From Nakamurella leprariae (GTDB lineage Bacteria; Actinomycetota; Actinomycetes; Mycobacteriales; Nakamurellaceae): a DNA stretch of 64,000 nucleotides. Below, in pieces: positions 4,302 through 32,039 of the stretch; position 1 is the stretch's first letter, and each line of letters starts with the position of its first letter. The notes beneath the pieces are model-generated. The model was given only the letters and a program-made list of their open reading frames with translations. It ran no database searches and had not been told where the DNA came from. A program made the translations under genes and the position numbers. The stretch spans positions 186,001-250,000 of the forward strand of contig NZ_JAERWK010000005.1 of NCBI RefSeq assembly GCF_016918035.1, given 5' to 3'.

Positions 4302-4697
4302 TCAGGCGTCCAGCTCCGCCGCCACCGCGCGCAGCACCGTCGCGATCCGCGAACCCATGGCACGGTCCGGGTAGCGACCGCGACGCAGATCGGGCAGGGC
4401 CTTGGACTCCAGCAGCTTGATCATGTCGTCGACCAGCCCGTGCAGCTCCTCGGCGGGCCGGCGGGTCGCGGCCACCACCGACGGCGGCGCCTCGAGCACC
4501 GTCACCGACAGCGCCTGCGGACCGCGGCGGCCGTCGGCCAGGCCGAACTCGACCTTCTGCCCGGGCTTGAGGCTGGTGATGCCCGAGGGCAGCGCGGAGG
4601 AGCGGACGTGCACGTCGGCCCCGCCCTCCTGGGCGATGAACCCGAAGCCCTTGTCCGCGTCGTACCACTTCACCTTGCCGCTGGGCACCCCACTCAC
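4302..4697 (-). CDS. Cold-shock protein with C-terminal extension (CspB/Rv0871-like)
   Basis: 131 residues from GTG 4697; GTG 4688 is an equally plausible start. Residues 5-70 form a cold-shock OB fold with the RNP1-type motif KGFGFI and a diverged RNP2-type DVHVRSSAL, expected to bind single-stranded nucleic acid. Residues 70-131 are an extra helical tail ([29 protein letters not shown]) that ordinary 67-residue Csp proteins lack. As I recall, this tail is characteristic of the mycobacterial CspB type, and the DUF2771/MFS neighbours fit that identity. It is transcribed alone, towards the terminator shared with DUF2771. Confidence 0.88.
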
Positions 4698-4998
4698 CTG
4701 TTCTCTCGTCCGGGGGTCGTGCGTGGATCCGGGATCCCCGGACCACCTGTCTCGTCGCATCCGGCACTCCACCCCGGCCCCGGATGCGGGCAGGCCGACG
4801 ATCGGCCGAGGGAACGACCGACCACCTGGAGGGATTCGCCGCGGGGTGACCGTGTGCCGGCCAGGTCCCCGACGTGCGGATGTGCCTGATCCAGCCTACT
4901 GGCGTTCCCACCCGGCCGACTCCGCCCGGCCGGACCGCACGGTGCGCGGCCCCGGCCGACGGTCCGGGACACCCGGGCGACCCGCCTATGCTGGTCGG
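4698..4998. other. Divergent intergenic region, no gene seen
   Basis: 301 bases between the cold-shock gene (leftward) and a small membrane-protein gene (rightward). Apart from the TATGCT hexamer just before the rightward gene, I see no RNA gene, repeat or coding frame with convincing features. A long 5' leader for the cold-shock mRNA is possible but cannot be shown. Confidence 0.5.
4987..4998 (+). promoter_or_regulatory. Putative leaderless -10 element
   Basis: TATGCT at 4987-4992 is followed by six bases and then the GTG start at 4999. This matches the TAnnnT plus 6-7 base spacing seen at ten other starts in the window and supports that start codon. Confidence 0.5.
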
Positions 4999-26572: not shown

Positions 26573-27907
26573 TCAGTTCCAGTCGATCCGGTCGGCCAGT
26601 GCTCGCAGCCGCTCGCCCCGGCGCGCGTCCGTGGACGCCACCCAGGCGATCCGCCCGAGCAGGTGCGCGCGGAAGTCCTGGACGCCGGAACGGTTCTGGC
26701 TCACCGGGCCGAACCGGACGCAGTTGAACAGGGTCGCCCGCAGCGCGTCGACCTCGTCCCGGGCCACCGCCGGACGATCGTTGACGACCACTCCGGTGAC
26801 GCGTTGCCGCTGCCACGCCCGCCGGACCCGGGTCTTGGCCGGATTGATCGAGAAGCCCTCGGCGGTGGCAATTCTGGCGACCGTCCCGATCAGCCGGTCC
26901 GCGGCCCGTCCCAGTGAAGGCGCCCCGGAGAAGGTCAGGTCGTCCGCGTACCGCGTGTAGTCGGCGCCGAACCGGCGCGCCAGCGCGGTGAGCCGCCGGT
27001 CCATCCCGAACGCGGCCAGATTGGCCAGGTGTGGCGACGTCGGGGCACCCTGCGGCAGGTGCGGCGCGGCCAGCCGACGCCGCAACCGGAACCGCTCACC
27101 GCCCGCCTCGGCGCCGGGCATGGCCCGCAGCACGGCCATCGGCACGGTGGAGCAGACCAGCGTGGTGAGCGCCCAGCTCACCGCCTCCGGGTAGCCGGCC
27201 GATCGCAGCACCCCGGCCACCCGGGACGCGGTCAGCCCGGCGAAGAACTGCTCCAGGTCCAGGGTGATCACCGTGTCCCGCCCGGCGTGCACGGCGGCGC
27301 CGGTGAGCACCGATCGCCCGGCCACGAACCCGTGCACGGCCGGGTGCACCGCCACCGGCGCGAGCAGTTCGTCGAGCACCTGGCGCTGCAGGGCCTTGAG
27401 CCGCGGGCGCGGTGCCTCCAGCAGCCGCGGTGTCCGGCCCGGACGGCTCAGCCAGCGGAACCGGTAGTGCTGCAGCACGCTCCGCGGCTCCCGGCGCTGC
27501 CAGCCACGCCGGTCGCCGAACCAGTCGAGCTCGCCCACCGTGAGCCCGAGGCGCTCGGCCAGCGCCGCCACGTCGTCGACCCGCGGCAGCGGGAACCGGC
27601 TGCCGACCATCGAGGTGGTGAACAGCAACCGGCGGACCACCCGGATCCGCGGGGTCGGTAGGAGCGGTGCCCCCTCGGCGACCACCGGCACCGGCGCGCT
27701 GAGCGGGAGGCCGAGCAGCAGGTGCTGCAACGAGCGCGGCGCGTCCACCGGCGGCGTGGGATGGGCGGCGAGCACCACGTCCACGACGTGCGCCAGTTCC
27801 ACCGGCACCGGCGCGAACACCAGCCGAGCGCGCGCAACCATCCGGCCGGCGTCCCACGGGCCGGTCAGCAGCGCGTCCGCCAGCGCGACAGCATGCTCGC
27901 TCCGCAT
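26573..27907 (-). CDS. Retron-like reverse transcriptase, orphan
   Basis: 444 residues. The RT fold has catalytic Asp217 in VITLDLEQFF, LPQGAPTSPHLANL (284 onward), the active site YTRYADDLTFSG with YADD at 320-323, NPAKTR, and RQRVTGVVVN whose VTG (370-372) marks retron-type RTs. The NAxxH retron element appears as GAAVH (203-207), so its Asn is lost. Residues 1-150 form an N-terminal extension of unknown role. GGAGG precedes ATG 27907. Only 92 bases separate it from the upstream ABC gene, too little for a typical msr-msd, and no effector gene adjoins it. It is either an incomplete retron or a stand-alone RT. Confidence 0.85.
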   Translation of the reverse strand: MRSEHAVALADALLTGPWDAGRMVARARLVFAPVPVELAHVVDVVLAAHPTPPVDAPRSLQHLLLGLPLSAPVPVVAEGAPLLPTPRIRVVRRLLFTTSMVGSRFPLPRVDDVAALAERLGLTVGELDWFGDRRGWQRREPRSVLQHYRFRWLSRPGRTPRLLEAPRPRLKALQRQVLDELLAPVAVHPAVHGFVAGRSVLTGAAVHAGRDTVITLDLEQFFAGLTASRVAGVLRSAGYPEAVSWALTTLVCSTVPMAVLRAMPGAEAGGERFRLRRRLAAPHLPQGAPTSPHLANLAAFGMDRRLTALARRFGADYTRYADDLTFSGAPSLGRAADRLIGTVARIATAEGFSINPAKTRVRRAWQRQRVTGVVVNDRPAVARDEVDALRATLFNCVRFGPVSQNRSGVQDFRAHLLGRIAWVASTDARRGERLRALADRIDWN

Positions 27908-27999
27908 CGCGCCTCCGCCTCGTCGCACGGCTGAAGATGATCAGCGGCAGGCTAACGGCTCACCACGATCGCCGTCACCACCGTGATCACCACCCAGCC

Positions 28000-29799
28000 T
28001 CAGGCCAGCAACTGATGCTCGGCCAGCTGCCGGTAGAGCTCGGACGTGGCCAGCAGCTCGGCGTGCCGTCCGGCGGCGACCACCCGCCCGGCGTCCATCA
28101 CCACGATCTGGTCGGCCTCGATCACGGTGGCCAACCGGTGGGCCACGATCATCACCGTTCGCCGCGAGCTCACGGAATGGATGGCCGCGGTGAGCGCCTG
28201 TTCGGTCACCGAGTCCAGGCTGGCCGTGGGTTCGTCGAGCAGCAGCAGCGGGGCGTCGGTGACCAGCGCCCGGGCGATGGCCAGCCGTTGGCGCTCCCCG
28301 CCGGAGAGCCCGGCTCCGGCGTCGCCGAGGACGGCATCGAGTCCGTCGGGGTGGGCGTCGACCCGGTGCAGCAGGTCGACCGCCGCGAGCACCTCACGGC
28401 ACCGCGCGTCGCCCACGTCCGGCGCGGCCAGGACCACGTTGTCGCGGATGGTCCCGGCCAGCACCGGGGCGTCCTGCTCGACGTAGCCGATCCGGGACCG
28501 CACCACGCTGCGCGGCAGGTCGCGGACGTCGACGCCGTCCAGCCGGATCGCCCCGCCCGTCGGCTCGTAGAACCGCTCGATGAGCGCCAGCACGGTGGAC
28601 TTCCCGGCGCCGGACGGACCCACCACCGCCGTGGTCGACCCGGGCGGCACCGCGAACGACACCCCGGCGAGGACGGGCCGGTCCGGTCGGTAGGCGAACT
28701 CGACATCCCGGAACTCGACGCCGATGCCGCCGCCACCCGGGGCGGGCCGAGGGTCGGCGCGCCGGGCCGGGTCGCGGTCCGCCTCCGGTGCGACCGCCAG
28801 GATCTCGTCGATCCGGGCCAGCGCACCGAGCGCGGCGCGCACCGTGGTGATCGCGGCGAAGAACTGCCCGAGCGGCATCACCATCATGAACAGGAACAGG
28901 ATGAAGGTGATCAGGTCGGCGACGCTCAGCGAGCCGTTGGCGACCCGGTAGCCGCCGACGCCCAGGACGGCCAGGAACGAGCCCTGGACGGCGAGACCGC
29001 TGATCGGCCACAGGATCGCGCCGATGCGGGCCACGCGGACGCCGAACCCATAGGCGTCCTGCGCCTCGTTCGAGAGCCGGTCCACCTCCCGGTCGGTGGC
29101 CCCGGCGGCCCGGATCGTCCGGACGGCCGACACCGCCCGTTCCACCCCGGAGGCCAACCGCCCGACCGCGTCCTGCGCCGACCGGCTCAGCCGCTGGATC
29201 CGCCCCGAGGCCACGATGACGCTCACCGCGGCGATGCTCACCACGCCCAGGGTGATGCCCAGCAGCACCGGGTCGATGAGCACCATGGCCACCAGCGACC
29301 CGACGAAGACCAGTGCGCCACCGAGGGCGTCGACCAGACCGCCGGTCAACGCGGTGCGGACCATGGTGGTGTCCGACCCGACCCGGGACACCAGATCGCC
29401 GGCCCGCCGAGTGTCGTACACCCGGATCGGCAGCCGCAGCAGATGGGTGACCAGCCGTCGACGGGCGGACAGCACCAGCCCCTCGGCGGTCCGCTCCAGC
29501 AGGAACTGCTGCACCGCCCCGACCACCGAGGAGGCCAGCACCACGGCGATGAGCAGGGTCGCGGCCGCGGCCAGCGAACCTTCGCCGCCCACCGACGCGA
29601 TGATCCGGTTGATCATGAGTGGTTGCAGCAGCGTCAGTCCCGCGCCGATCAACGACAGCAGCACGACGACGACCAGCACCCGGCGGTGCTCGCCCAGGAA
29701 GCCGATCAGACTGCGCAGCGGCGCCGGCTCGAGCTGCGGTTCGGTGGAGCCGGTCTCGTCCGGCGACGTGGTCTTCGGGTCGGACACGGTGTCAGTCAC
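28000..29799 (-). CDS. ABC exporter, fused membrane and ATPase domains
   Basis: 599 residues. A six-helix transmembrane domain (residues 30-320) precedes an ATPase domain with Walker A GPSGAGKST, Q-loop YVEQDAPVLAGTI, signature LSGGERQRLAIARA, Walker B LLLLDEPTASLD and His switch IVAHRLAT. It is a half-transporter of the multidrug/lipid exporter type and probably a homodimer. The start GTG 29799 overlaps the stop of the small HTH gene upstream, so that regulator likely controls it. Confidence 0.9.
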   Translation of the reverse strand: MTDTVSDPKTTSPDETGSTEPQLEPAPLRSLIGFLGEHRRVLVVVVLLSLIGAGLTLLQPLMINRIIASVGGEGSLAAAATLLIAVVLASSVVGAVQQFLLERTAEGLVLSARRRLVTHLLRLPIRVYDTRRAGDLVSRVGSDTTMVRTALTGGLVDALGGALVFVGSLVAMVLIDPVLLGITLGVVSIAAVSVIVASGRIQRLSRSAQDAVGRLASGVERAVSAVRTIRAAGATDREVDRLSNEAQDAYGFGVRVARIGAILWPISGLAVQGSFLAVLGVGGYRVANGSLSVADLITFILFLFMMVMPLGQFFAAITTVRAALGALARIDEILAVAPEADRDPARRADPRPAPGGGGIGVEFRDVEFAYRPDRPVLAGVSFAVPPGSTTAVVGPSGAGKSTVLALIERFYEPTGGAIRLDGVDVRDLPRSVVRSRIGYVEQDAPVLAGTIRDNVVLAAPDVGDARCREVLAAVDLLHRVDAHPDGLDAVLGDAGAGLSGGERQRLAIARALVTDAPLLLLDEPTASLDSVTEQALTAAIHSVSSRRTVMIVAHRLATVIEADQIVVMDAGRVVAAGRHAELLATSELYRQLAEHQLLA

Positions 29800-30022
29800 G
29801 GGAGAACCTCGACCCACCGTGCTTGCGGTGCACGGCCTGTCGGGTGACGCCGAGGGCGTCGGCGATCCCCGCCCACGGCAGGCCCGCGGTCCGGGCCCGC
29901 CGCACCGCCACCGCCTCCAACCGCGACAACTCCACGTGGATCAATCGGATGGCCCGCAACGCGGTCACCGGGTCGTCACTCATGGCGTCGACGGCGAGGT
30001 CGTCCAGCGGTCTGACGCTCAT
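29792..30022 (-). CDS. Small helix-turn-helix regulator of ABC exporter
   Basis: 76 residues. The C-terminal half has a homeodomain-like HTH, LPWAGIADALGVTRQAVHRKHGG; the N-terminal half has heptad-like helices (DPVTALRAIRLIHVELSRLEAVAVRRAR) that may dimerise. A GGGAGG ribosome site fixes ATG 30022. Its stop overlaps the exporter start by 8 bases. Two GTCAAC-N4-GTTGAC palindromes sit immediately upstream over the likely promoter, suggesting self-repression and control of the exporter. The inducer is unknown. Confidence 0.8.
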   Translation of the reverse strand: MSVRPLDDLAVDAMSDDPVTALRAIRLIHVELSRLEAVAVRRARTAGLPWAGIADALGVTRQAVHRKHGGSRFSRD

Positions 30023-30038
30023 CGGCGCCTCCCTCGGT

Positions 30039-30070
30039 CCGTGGTTGTCAACCAGTGTTGACAACCACGG
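30039..30070. promoter_or_regulatory. Perfect 14-bp inverted-repeat operator (O1)
   Basis: CCGTGGTTGTCAAC at 30039-30052 and its exact complement at 30057-30070 flank CAGT. The core is GTCAAC-N4-GTTGAC. On the minus strand it lies just downstream of, and touches, the predicted -10, so a bound regulator would block transcription. Confidence 0.75.
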
Positions 30071-30096
30071 TACCCAGGCGTCGACGGGCGCGTCAA
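30067..30096 (-). promoter_or_regulatory. Predicted promoter of HTH-ABC operon
   Basis: On the minus strand TTGACG (30091-30096) and TACCGT (30067-30072) are separated by 18 bases, close to the sigma-A consensus. The -35 lies in operator O2 and the -10 in operator O1. Confidence 0.55.
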
Positions 30097-30108
30097 CACA
30101 AGTTGACA
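30091..30108. promoter_or_regulatory. Second operator (O2) with the same core
   Basis: CGTCAAC, four bases, GTTGACA repeats the GTCAAC-N4-GTTGAC core of O1, 39 to 52 bases away from it, and overlaps the predicted -35 box. Confidence 0.65.
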
Positions 30109-30138
30109 CGCGTCAGCTCACGGGAATCCCGATCTCGG

Positions 30139-30212
30139 GTCAGCGGCGACGACGACCTGCTCGCCTGTGCGGGCCGCGACAGAGGTGGAGCCTGTCGTCC
30201 GGCCTGCGGTGC
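30139..30212. repeat. 74-bp direct repeat, copy 1 (flanks TAC islet)
   Basis: Identical over 74 bases to 31808-31881, in the same orientation, bracketing the toxin-antitoxin-chaperone genes. The sequence contains GACGACGACCTGCTCGCCTG and the same high GC as the host background. It could be an attachment or duplication scar, or a dispersed repeat. Confidence 0.9.
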
Positions 30213-30337
30213 TCGCCCTGTCGGCCCAAGGCTGCCTTGAGTCGCCGCCCGCGGCAGTCTTACGCGGGCCTGAATCGTTTCGTCACCCAGCGAGTCAGTG
30301 CAATTCCGCAACGCGCCTACTGGACCGCTTAACTTGA

Positions 30338-30838
30338 CTAATCTACGTCGATCTCGACTTCGCCCGAGCCGCCGTCGATGCTATGCAGAATATCCATCGT
30401 AAACGGCGGGAATCCAAGGCGTCCAACCGTTGACTGGACGGTTTCCCGCGCGTAGGGATGGAGGGCCATCGCCCCCACCAAGACGGCGAAGCAGGTCAGA
30501 TCTGCACTGTCGAGCAAAGCTGAATTTCCGCCCCGGCGCCCCCAAGTGCCGACCATCTCAAGCTCCACTCGCCAAGCTACAGGTCGCGCCTCCTCGATGG
30601 AGTCGTCATCTTGGACCGACCTAGCCTGCACCACATACTTTGAGAAGACGTACACCTCTCGCGCCGAGTCCTCAGCCGGAGACCGAACGCTGAGGGCCGT
30701 GGAGACCTCGAAAGGGCCAAAGTCGATCGGTTGTTCGGCTTCGCAGCTCATGGACACGAGTCGTACGTCAGTCATGTCTTGCAGTTGGTCCAAGACAGCG
30801 GATGCCCGGCTACGGAGTTCGGCGACGGTCAGCTTCAT
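30338..30838 (-). CDS. SecB-like chaperone of a TAC toxin-antitoxin module
   Basis: 166 residues. The C-terminal half carries SecB-type motifs: LHPYARETVQSTVGRLGFPP (about 126-145) followed by FTMDIL, matching the conserved 'PYARE...FPPLxLxPInF' block of SecB. Upstream, EVYVFSKYVVQARS and VAWRVELEMVGTWG give the expected beta-strands. Its start overlaps the antitoxin stop as ATGA. In M. tuberculosis a SecB-like protein (Rv1957) protects an unstable antitoxin from degradation; the same role is inferred here. GC is visibly lower than in the neighbours. Confidence 0.8.
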   Translation of the reverse strand: MKLTVAELRSRASAVLDQLQDMTDVRLVSMSCEAEQPIDFGPFEVSTALSVRSPAEDSAREVYVFSKYVVQARSVQDDDSIEEARPVAWRVELEMVGTWGRRGGNSALLDSADLTCFAVLVGAMALHPYARETVQSTVGRLGFPPFTMDILHSIDGGSGEVEIDVD

Positions 30839-31236
30839 GAGGCGCGTGCGTCACTCAGTTGATGGACTCCAACCTTCGTCAATTCGCGAGATCGATACGC
30901 CTGATCGGCCGGCATCGGCCAATCTAGGCGCCGCTGCTGAGGCCGCAAAGACTGCACTTGGGCTGTGAACGAGGGGCGATGTGTCACAAGATGCGCACTG
31001 AGTTCGTACCCGAGAGCGTGCAACATTGCGGCGAACGACTTAATGGATAAGTTCCTCTTCCCGCTGAGTCGCTGCGATACTTCGGAGGCAGAGACGTTGA
31101 GTCTGCGCGCGAGCGCAGCTTGACTCACGCCCGACCGCGCCATGGCCTCAGAGATTAGCTCCACGGCACCCAAGGCCATCCGCTCCTCAGCGAGAAGCGA
31201 TTCAGATCGAGGGGTGCCCCGGAACCAGTCAGCCAT
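30835..31236 (-). CDS. HigA-like XRE antitoxin with chaperone-addiction-type tail
   Basis: 133 residues from ATG 31236, which has GGAG upstream; a TTG at 31251 is less likely. Residues 21-82 form a Cro/C1-type HTH (GVSQAALARRLNVSASEVSQRLSGKRNLSIKSFAAMLHALGYELS). Residues 84-133 are a polar tail (VQSLRPQQRRLDWPMPADQ...) without a known fold, in the position of the chaperone-addiction region of TAC antitoxins. It should bind and neutralise the upstream toxin, repress the operon, and depend on the SecB-like protein. It overlaps both neighbours. Confidence 0.83.
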   Translation of the reverse strand: MADWFRGTPRSESLLAEERMALGAVELISEAMARSGVSQAALARRLNVSASEVSQRLSGKRNLSIKSFAAMLHALGYELSAHLVTHRPSFTAQVQSLRPQQRRLDWPMPADQAYRSRELTKVGVHQLSDARAS

Positions 31237-31630
31237 TGATCCACTCTCCAAATATGGTGCGCGCGAGCTCGACTTGCTTTGGAACTTGCTTGTCCTTCGG
31301 CTTCCTAGCCCCGTGTGTCGCGACCCAACGCCGCTCCGCGGAGGCGGCTGGCGCAGCGATTAGGTACAGCCTCCAGCCCGGACCGTGCGGAGCCTTTACT
31401 TCCCAGACAACTGGAACCCCCGAAACAAGAAGTCGTCGAAACTGCTCAGGTGTTCGTAGGAACCCCTTATCAACCAGCAACTCGAGTCGGGCGCGGAACT
31501 GTGCCTGAGGCCGATCATCGAGTCGCTCCAAGAAATCCAGCGCAGGGCAGCTGCCATCTGTTCTCCTAGCGCCAAGGACCCTGCCGGCATCGCCGACAGC
31601 AAGCTCTACGACCTCGTCGTCGTTAGCCAT
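31229..31630 (-). CDS. HigB/RelE-family toxin (Gp49-like) of TAC module
   Basis: 133 residues. The RelE/HigB-like core is residues 30-130: ALDFLERLDDRPQAQFRARLELL, VPVVWEVKAPHGPGWRLYLI, RRWVATHGARKPKDKQVPKQ, VELARTIFGEW. The 'W-R-L-Y ... H-G-x-x-K-K/P-K ... ELA' order matches HigB mRNA-cleaving toxins acting at the ribosome. It is the first gene of three and its stop overlaps the antitoxin start by 8 bases. The toxin-antitoxin-chaperone order is the same as in the M. tuberculosis HigB1-HigA1-Rv1957 system. Catalysis is inferred from family. Confidence 0.82.
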   Translation of the reverse strand: MANDDEVVELAVGDAGRVLGARRTDGSCPALDFLERLDDRPQAQFRARLELLVDKGFLRTPEQFRRLLVSGVPVVWEVKAPHGPGWRLYLIAAPAASAERRWVATHGARKPKDKQVPKQVELARTIFGEWING

Positions 31631-31807
31631 AACTTAAGCTCGTCACCGCCACTGTCGCAAGCTGTATGCCTCTAACGTGATCTGCGACTCTACTTCGCCC
31701 AACGGCAAGCACAGGCTCGTCACGGCTAGATAGGCCCATCGGGTGATCGCCTTCGCCCATTTGCGCAGGTCGAAGCCGGGACTCGACACGACCTAGTCGC
31801 CCGCGGA

Positions 31808-31881
31808 GTCAGCGGCGACGACGACCTGCTCGCCTGTGCGGGCCGCGACAGAGGTGGAGCCTGTCGTCCGGCCTGCGGTGC
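31808..31881. repeat. 74-bp direct repeat, copy 2 (flanks TAC islet)
   Basis: Identical over all 74 bases to 30139-30212 and in the same orientation. The distance between copies is 1669 bases and exactly spans the three TAC genes. Beyond it, TGCTCG and a few further bases also match copy 1 after an inserted GCTGCGG-like duplication. Confidence 0.9.
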
Positions 31882-32039
31882 GCTGCGGTGCTCGACCTGC
31901 TGGCCCCGGGGTTGCCCCGGAGGCTCCGGCATCGGCCCGGCGGACCGGGCCGGCCCGGCGTCCTCGCCGCCGCCGCTGACCCGATCACCCTGACACGAAC
32001 CGCCCCGCCCCGACCAGGCCCGGTGTCGGTACCGCTGCC

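Follow-up and report, generated by a model that had tools for sequence, protein, structure and literature searches.

The operon described here, from the genome of Nakamurella leprariae (4.47 Mb in 39 contigs), is a genuine HigBA-type toxin-antitoxin-chaperone (TAC) system of known kind, and among the matches found its nearest relatives are the TACs of Gordonia phages and of two viral contigs. It lies in the window, by which we mean the whole stretch of 64,000 nucleotides that was analysed, and is a minimal repeat-bounded cassette without a mobility gene, apparently acquired horizontally from outside. By analogy with characterised systems, we consider it very probable that this acquired TAC relies on a chaperone which would hold the antitoxin tail via Trp and Tyr pockets of the Rv1957 type and so silence the HigB-fold toxin; its chaperone dependence, toxicity, regulation and trigger are what we infer.

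The operon and the folds of its products

The preliminary description had placed three overlapping minus-strand genes at 30338-31630 and had read them as toxin, XRE antitoxin and SecB-like chaperone. Reading of the open frames recovers them at exactly these coordinates and in this order, as a co-directional operon:

31229..31630, minus strand, HigB/RelE-fold toxin, 133 aa (AlphaFold model and Foldseek, alignment)
30835..31236, minus strand, XRE antitoxin, 133 aa from ATG, HTH at residues 30-79 (Pfam HTH_3)
30835..30999, minus strand, C-terminal extension of the antitoxin, putative chaperone-addiction region, residues 80-133 plus stop, containing RLDWPMPADQAYRSR
30338..30838, minus strand, SecB-like chaperone, 166 aa (phmmer, profile, Foldseek)

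All three reading frames are open. The toxin and antitoxin genes overlap by 8 nt and the antitoxin and chaperone genes by 4 nt (ATGA), and an alternative TTG start is possible 15 nt upstream of the antitoxin ATG. A consensus scan found no promoter or terminator. The identification as a TAC is supported by the gene order together with the evidence for a SecB fold and a HigB fold.

The third protein contains both motifs that had been quoted for it, LHPYARE and GFPP. It does not reach the curated SecB family scores (Pfam SecB, E 0.00063 and 20.1 bits, under the cut-off of 26 bits; NCBIfam secB, 16.9 bits against the 102.8 required). When it was searched alone against solved structures with phmmer, the single match up to E 10 was Rv1957 in 5mtw (E 1.4e-6). 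A profile of three phage-type chaperones finds Rv1957 at E 4.9e-12, and a profile of nine TAC chaperones finds it at E 1.8e-38 and canonical SecB at 4.9e-4; among solved TAC chaperones, this nine-member profile matched Rv1957, bound to its ChAD peptide, and no other. The E-values for the protein alone and for this larger profile place the match to Rv1957 beyond chance. In the AlphaFold2 model (pLDDT 77.9), four long strands are accompanied by a long helix at the C-terminus. The best Foldseek matches of this model are the four 5mtw chains, at E 6e-8 (best 6.2e-8) to 1.5e-7 (TMt 0.75-0.89), the next match being the SecB of H. influenzae (1fx3); identity to Rv1957 in the structural alignment is 19-21%. 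A structure search able to show the lack of a SecB fold thus returned Rv1957 and then SecB, and the predicted model supports a SecB fold for the third protein.

The HigB/RelE-like nature claimed for the first protein is likewise supported by its predicted fold and by alignment. At the sequence level the toxin falls under the cut-off of Pfam Gp49 (E 0.017); alone it has no convincing match among PDB sequences (best E 0.99), and a three-member profile of the toxin and two phage-type relatives has none. Profile-profile comparison with hhalign relates the phage-type toxins to the M. tuberculosis-like TAC toxins (probability 69%, E 4.4e-5). The AlphaFold model (pLDDT 85.7) gives four Foldseek matches at E < 0.001, all of them chains of the S. 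pneumoniae HigBA module 6af3/6af4 (6af4 at E 4.8e-4; chain A of 6af3 is named HigB), and it also matches the ribosome-bound HigB1 of 7nbu (E 6.9e-3, TMq 0.63), so that the search gave no sign of a missing RelE/HigB fold. The model is not independent of the HigB1-like toxins, because three of the five sequences in its input alignment come from that branch. Residues E77, R87 and K110 are invariant in all nine aligned toxins (alignment A6), and E77, K79, R87, K110 and K114 align, in a mapping made by eye, with E66, R68, R77, K95 and K99 of HigB-TAC, which surround the mRNA according to PMC9098466; no counterpart of HigB-TAC N73 is kept. A HigB/RelE fold with basic active-site residues is supported for the modelled toxin.

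Phage relatives and the recognition code

In the phage search, the window chaperone was 36% identical over 98% (E 1e-19) and the toxin 41.5% identical over 79% (E 4e-17) to proteins of Gordonia phages Floral and Pollux, with the same matches in both. Full-length identities to Floral and to the viral contig L080 are 36 and 34% for the chaperone, 38 and 40% for the antitoxin, and 42 and 43% for the toxin. The Floral set (genes 41-40-39, the chaperone being annotated as hypothetical) has the immunity repressor on one side and a metalloprotease on the other, with a tyrosine integrase two genes away. Complete toxin-antitoxin-chaperone sets are also present on the viral contigs L080 and L093, and this T-A-C order is found in all three phage-type relatives read, with a 4-nt overlap in two and direct abutment in L093. 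The chaperone tree groups the window with L074, L080 and L093 with modest support (74/69), in agreement with the low identity (11-22%) of the window toxin and antitoxin to those of six other actinobacterial TACs. This phage-type subfamily links actinobacterial TACs to phages.

Such systems are sparsely distributed. The TAC chaperone profile matches 9 of the 397 genomes of the order, own genome included, and two of the 17 of the genus, the second (G015) through a different, MqsA-type set. Single-protein searches gave relatives in 2 of 101 genomes and in 5 of 396 of the phylum, four of these five being weak and the own genome counting in both; a Pfam SecB search matched 8 of 396. Single-sequence scans of genome contigs and viral contigs confirmed no relative, whereas alignment-based searches did find relatives, and the plasmid search gave no match for chaperone or toxin. 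The presence of secB-like genes in certain phages and plasmids is already mentioned in a 2014 review (PMC4257090). Our literature search for TACs in actinophages brought up work on antitoxin cross-interactions and on an unrelated podovirus, which does not prove the phage sets undescribed.

Several loci met on the way deserve mention in their own right. The phage-type TACs at L074 2478-5237 and L093 2755-6045 are flanked by a repressor or HTH gene on one side and by a gene for a small metalloprotease (with HELVH in L093) on the other, and are possibly part of a phage immunity switch. L089, from G015 of the same genus, is a second and different SecB-associated set: its antitoxin is of the MqsA type, its first gene (170 aa) matches nothing in Pfam, and the set lies in 3.2 kb of DNA with 34% GC. 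The TAC of G061, from the same order (L004 158-1450), directly adjoins a gene that by eye resembles a tyrosine integrase.

Pfam HTH_3 occupies residues 30-79 of the antitoxin (E 9e-9, over the cut-off) and leaves a tail of 54 residues, in line with the XRE antitoxin and tail of about 50 residues first described. Two further statements about this tail, that it has no visible match to a known chaperone-addiction sequence and that the recognition code may be new, did not hold up. The tail DW-PMPADQA-YR resembles the solved peptide TWHRLSSYRG and the chaperone keeps D24/R26; with a W..YR core and a D/R pocket that resemble HigA1/Rv1957, a new code is unsupported for this tail. According to PMC6377645, the main contacts of the HigA1 ChAD peptide EVPTWHRLSSYRG are W108, R110 and Y114; D27, R29 and L108 of Rv1957 contact W108, and Y49, I77 and L154-L157 contact Y114. 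The window tail shows W106-x7-Y114-R115 against W108-x5-Y114-R115 in HigA1, the W-Y spacing being 7 and not 5, and has no counterpart of R110 (Met at W+2). In the chaperone, D24/R26 align with the Trp-pocket residues D27/R29 and F143-P-P-F146 with L154-P-P-L157, but a Val stands at the position of Y49 (alignment A4), and the Tyr pocket is therefore not fully kept.

Other actinobacterial tails read DWVSPASRAYR (Amycolatopsis), DWVSQGMTTYGKG (Lentzea), DWVQPVAKYHE (an Intrasporangiaceae MAG) and AWTARGCFPYEGR (G061). The pattern W-x(4-8)-Y, chosen after the tails were seen, occurs in five of nine tails against 1.2 expected from shuffles, and at least five of nine are reached in 9 of 20,000 shuffled sets; for the window tail alone, W..Y arises in 15% of shuffles and is not significant. 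Tail and pocket were then counted together in 20 TACs whose chaperone gene directly follows that of a HigA-like antitoxin. Among actinobacterial and phage TACs, the D27/R29 pair is present in 6/6 with a W..Y tail vs 2/9 without (n=15; one-sided Fisher p 0.0056); with five distant members added the association is weaker (6/8 vs 2/12; n=20; p 0.015), and in the first ten TACs alone p is 0.083. These co-occurrences are not independent events, because the sequences are related. The count excludes, by a choice made from the ORF lists, L088 and L089, whose antitoxins are not HigA-like, L064, L066 and L067, which have no such antitoxin upstream, L073, where no TAC was seen, L042, in which the antitoxin was not identified, and the weak matches L041, L043 and L044; L083, L084 and L092 were omitted as the same places as L004, the window and L080.

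Unlike the window TAC, those of Floral, L080 and L093 have tails devoid of Trp and chaperones devoid of the pocket Asp (A/R, G/F and L/R, respectively, at the Trp-pocket positions), and it is in this phage branch that another recognition code may lie. Because one member of this subfamily has the tail Trp and its pocket and three lack them, the recognition code can be put to the test here. A broader reading, speculative and in our view rather unlikely, is that TAC tails and chaperone pockets co-evolve as lock and key, an Asp/Arg pocket tending to pair with a W-x(5-7)-Y tail, and that the phage-borne branch, having lost the two, relies on a different code, in which case phage and host TACs would exert no cross-control. 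The window TAC would then be alone, among the phage-branch members found, in having the host code, and it would be moved in trans as a 1.67-kb cassette that is bounded by repeats and carries no mobility gene.

The repeat-bounded cassette

The surroundings of the operon hold features that the preliminary description overlooked, as it did the phage relatives: a GC island and a pair of 74-bp direct repeats.

30139..30212, no strand, copy A of the 74-bp direct repeat, located downstream of the operon, 100% identity with copy B
31808..31881, no strand, copy B of the 74-bp direct repeat, located upstream of the operon, with a 10-bp tandem duplication after it
30213..31807, no strand, inserted cassette, 1595 bp from repeat to repeat, present once in the genome

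The repeats are spaced by 1669 and lie just 125 and 177 bp from the operon. GC content is 60.6% between them vs 72.9% in the rest of the window, and the lowest-GC stretch of 1293 bp in the window (30270-31562, 59.9%) falls on the operon, the lowest outside 30000-32000 being 64.9%. Most other TACs are likewise lower in GC than their flanks (six of seven loci), L075 being the exception. After the 10-bp duplication at copy B, 12 of 15 nt equal those beyond copy A, and the arrangement looks, as far as the sequence can tell, like an insertion with end duplication. CIME-like elements end in attachment sites but lack an integrase of their own, and the direct repeats expected at both ends of such an element are present here. 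The locus exemplifies a TAC in the form of a minimal cassette bounded by repeats.

The repeats could nevertheless be unrelated to the mobility of the operon and reflect a local duplication or an assembly error, a reading that we find less probable than mobility and still take seriously. No syntenic empty site was found among the genus genomes examined: the neighbouring VOC gene lies within 1.5 kb beside MoaE in none of the 16 others, and G014 has the ABC-HTH pair in common, but other DNA beyond it. No recombinase adjoins a repeat, and the six recombinases found in a genome search for the tyrosine type are all on other contigs and none is linked. Nor does the repeat fold better than shuffles, as DNA or as RNA, which also led us to reject a structured element. 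Against this reading stand the perfect identity over 74 bp, the close bracketing of the GC island and the lack of a third full copy in the genome.

Other explanations of the repeat were tried and rejected. A dispersed repeat family is at odds with only two genome matches at E ≤ 0.001; in the genus genomes, dozens of short matches at E ≤ 1 are mostly GC-rich or low-complexity, and the best (G004, 44 bp, E 4.7e-6) lies in other sequence. As an attachment site of a known phage or plasmid, the repeat has short matches to only one phage record and three plasmid records (E 0.02-0.07), and its exact 21-base core is absent from the viral contigs. No tRNA or Rfam RNA was found in it, a mir-185 match far under the cut-off being taken as chance. 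Repeat bounding is not a general rule for TACs either: no bracketing pair was found in the stretches searched of L074, L075-L079, L004 (covered up to 43 bp beyond the toxin) and L093, and L080 alone is bracketed, by two nested direct pairs (2213-2966, 4565-4809), one of 44 nt, terminator-like (84% alike, spacing 1642), and one of 67 nt (76% alike, spacing 2530). The 74-bp pair itself is absent from Floral, L080 and L093, unlike in the window.

We think it improbable that the locus is a decaying TAC, its genes intact and its toxicity or chaperone dependence lost, in a prophage remnant whose repeats are old attachment sites. Viral closest relatives, a position two genes from integrases in Floral and the absence of any other phage gene between the repeats are compatible with such decay. 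The three open frames with tight overlaps, the aligned active-site and pocket residues, the short distances from operon to repeats, the location of all six tyrosine recombinases on other contigs and a repeat that matches only 1 of 50,697 phage records (36 bp, E 0.07) count against it.

Two neighbouring features were noted. A perfect inverted repeat of 14 bp around a 4-nt loop (CCGTGGTTGTCAAC) at 30039-30070, just upstream of a small HTH gene (29792-30022), is perhaps the operator of this gene. About 2.4 kb from the TAC, at 26573-27928 on the minus strand, lies a gene whose 451-aa product is a retron-like reverse transcriptase by its matches to PADLOC RT_other (6e-167) and RT_outgroup (7e-158) and to Pfam RVT_1; the search for retron RNA consisted of the Rfam scan.

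Proposed mechanism and comparison with known systems

In the mechanism that we favour, the SecB-like chaperone would bind the XRE antitoxin at its C-terminal extension, with the same Trp and Tyr pockets that Rv1957 uses. The bound chaperone would keep the antitoxin soluble and intact, so that the predicted HigB-fold ribosome-dependent mRNA endonuclease stays silent, and the antitoxin, with the chaperone, probably also represses the operon. Were the chaperone diverted, the antitoxin would be degraded and the toxin would cleave translated mRNA and stop translation. Since the nearest kin are actinophage TACs, and since the lambda major tail protein activates the HigBAC system of E. coli C496 (PMC11980606) and a capsid protein triggers CmdTAC (PMC11618068), the likeliest trigger would by analogy be a phage protein competing for the chaperone.

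That the operon is instead a two-gene HigBA, with an antitoxin independent of a SecB-like protein that serves as a general export or folding chaperone, we hold to be very improbable: the TAC chaperones tested in PMC5105189 made up for the lack of SecB in a cold-sensitive E. coli secB mutant by suppressing this sensitivity, and the operon chaperone is the only Pfam SecB match in the host genome at E ≤ 0.01 (none at 0.001), but the tail has a ChAD-like core and the chaperone a matching pocket, the T-A-C order recurs in 3/3 phage-type relatives, and 15 of the 17 genus genomes have no chaperone match, so that the genus does not depend on a SecB-like chaperone.

The chaperone-controlled TAC that we prefer shares with the M. 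tuberculosis system the HigB1-HigA1-Rv1957 gene order, as had been proposed, together with the HigB fold, an XRE antitoxin with a putative addiction tail, the SecB-like fold, the Trp-pocket residues, a PP-containing Tyr pocket and the W..YR core of the tail. It differs in the longer W-Y spacing, in the lack of an R110 counterpart and in the toxin motifs, GPG(W/Y)RL and THGxxKPK against NNH(Y/F)R and FYKNQQKTP in the M. tuberculosis-like branch. The TACs of Amycolatopsis, Lentzea, the Intrasporangiaceae MAG, Corynebacterium glaucum, C. bouchesdurhonense and G061 have the same T-A-C order as the window, with a W..Y tail in 4/6 and a D/R pocket in 6/6, but their toxins and antitoxins belong to the M. 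tuberculosis-like branch. E. coli HigBAC and CmdTAC provide the model for how the system would work, a phage protein diverting the chaperone so that the antitoxin is lost and the toxin acts, whereas the window TAC is tied to phages by kinship; the toxin of CmdTAC, CmdT, is an mRNA ADP-ribosyltransferase and not a HigB as in the window.
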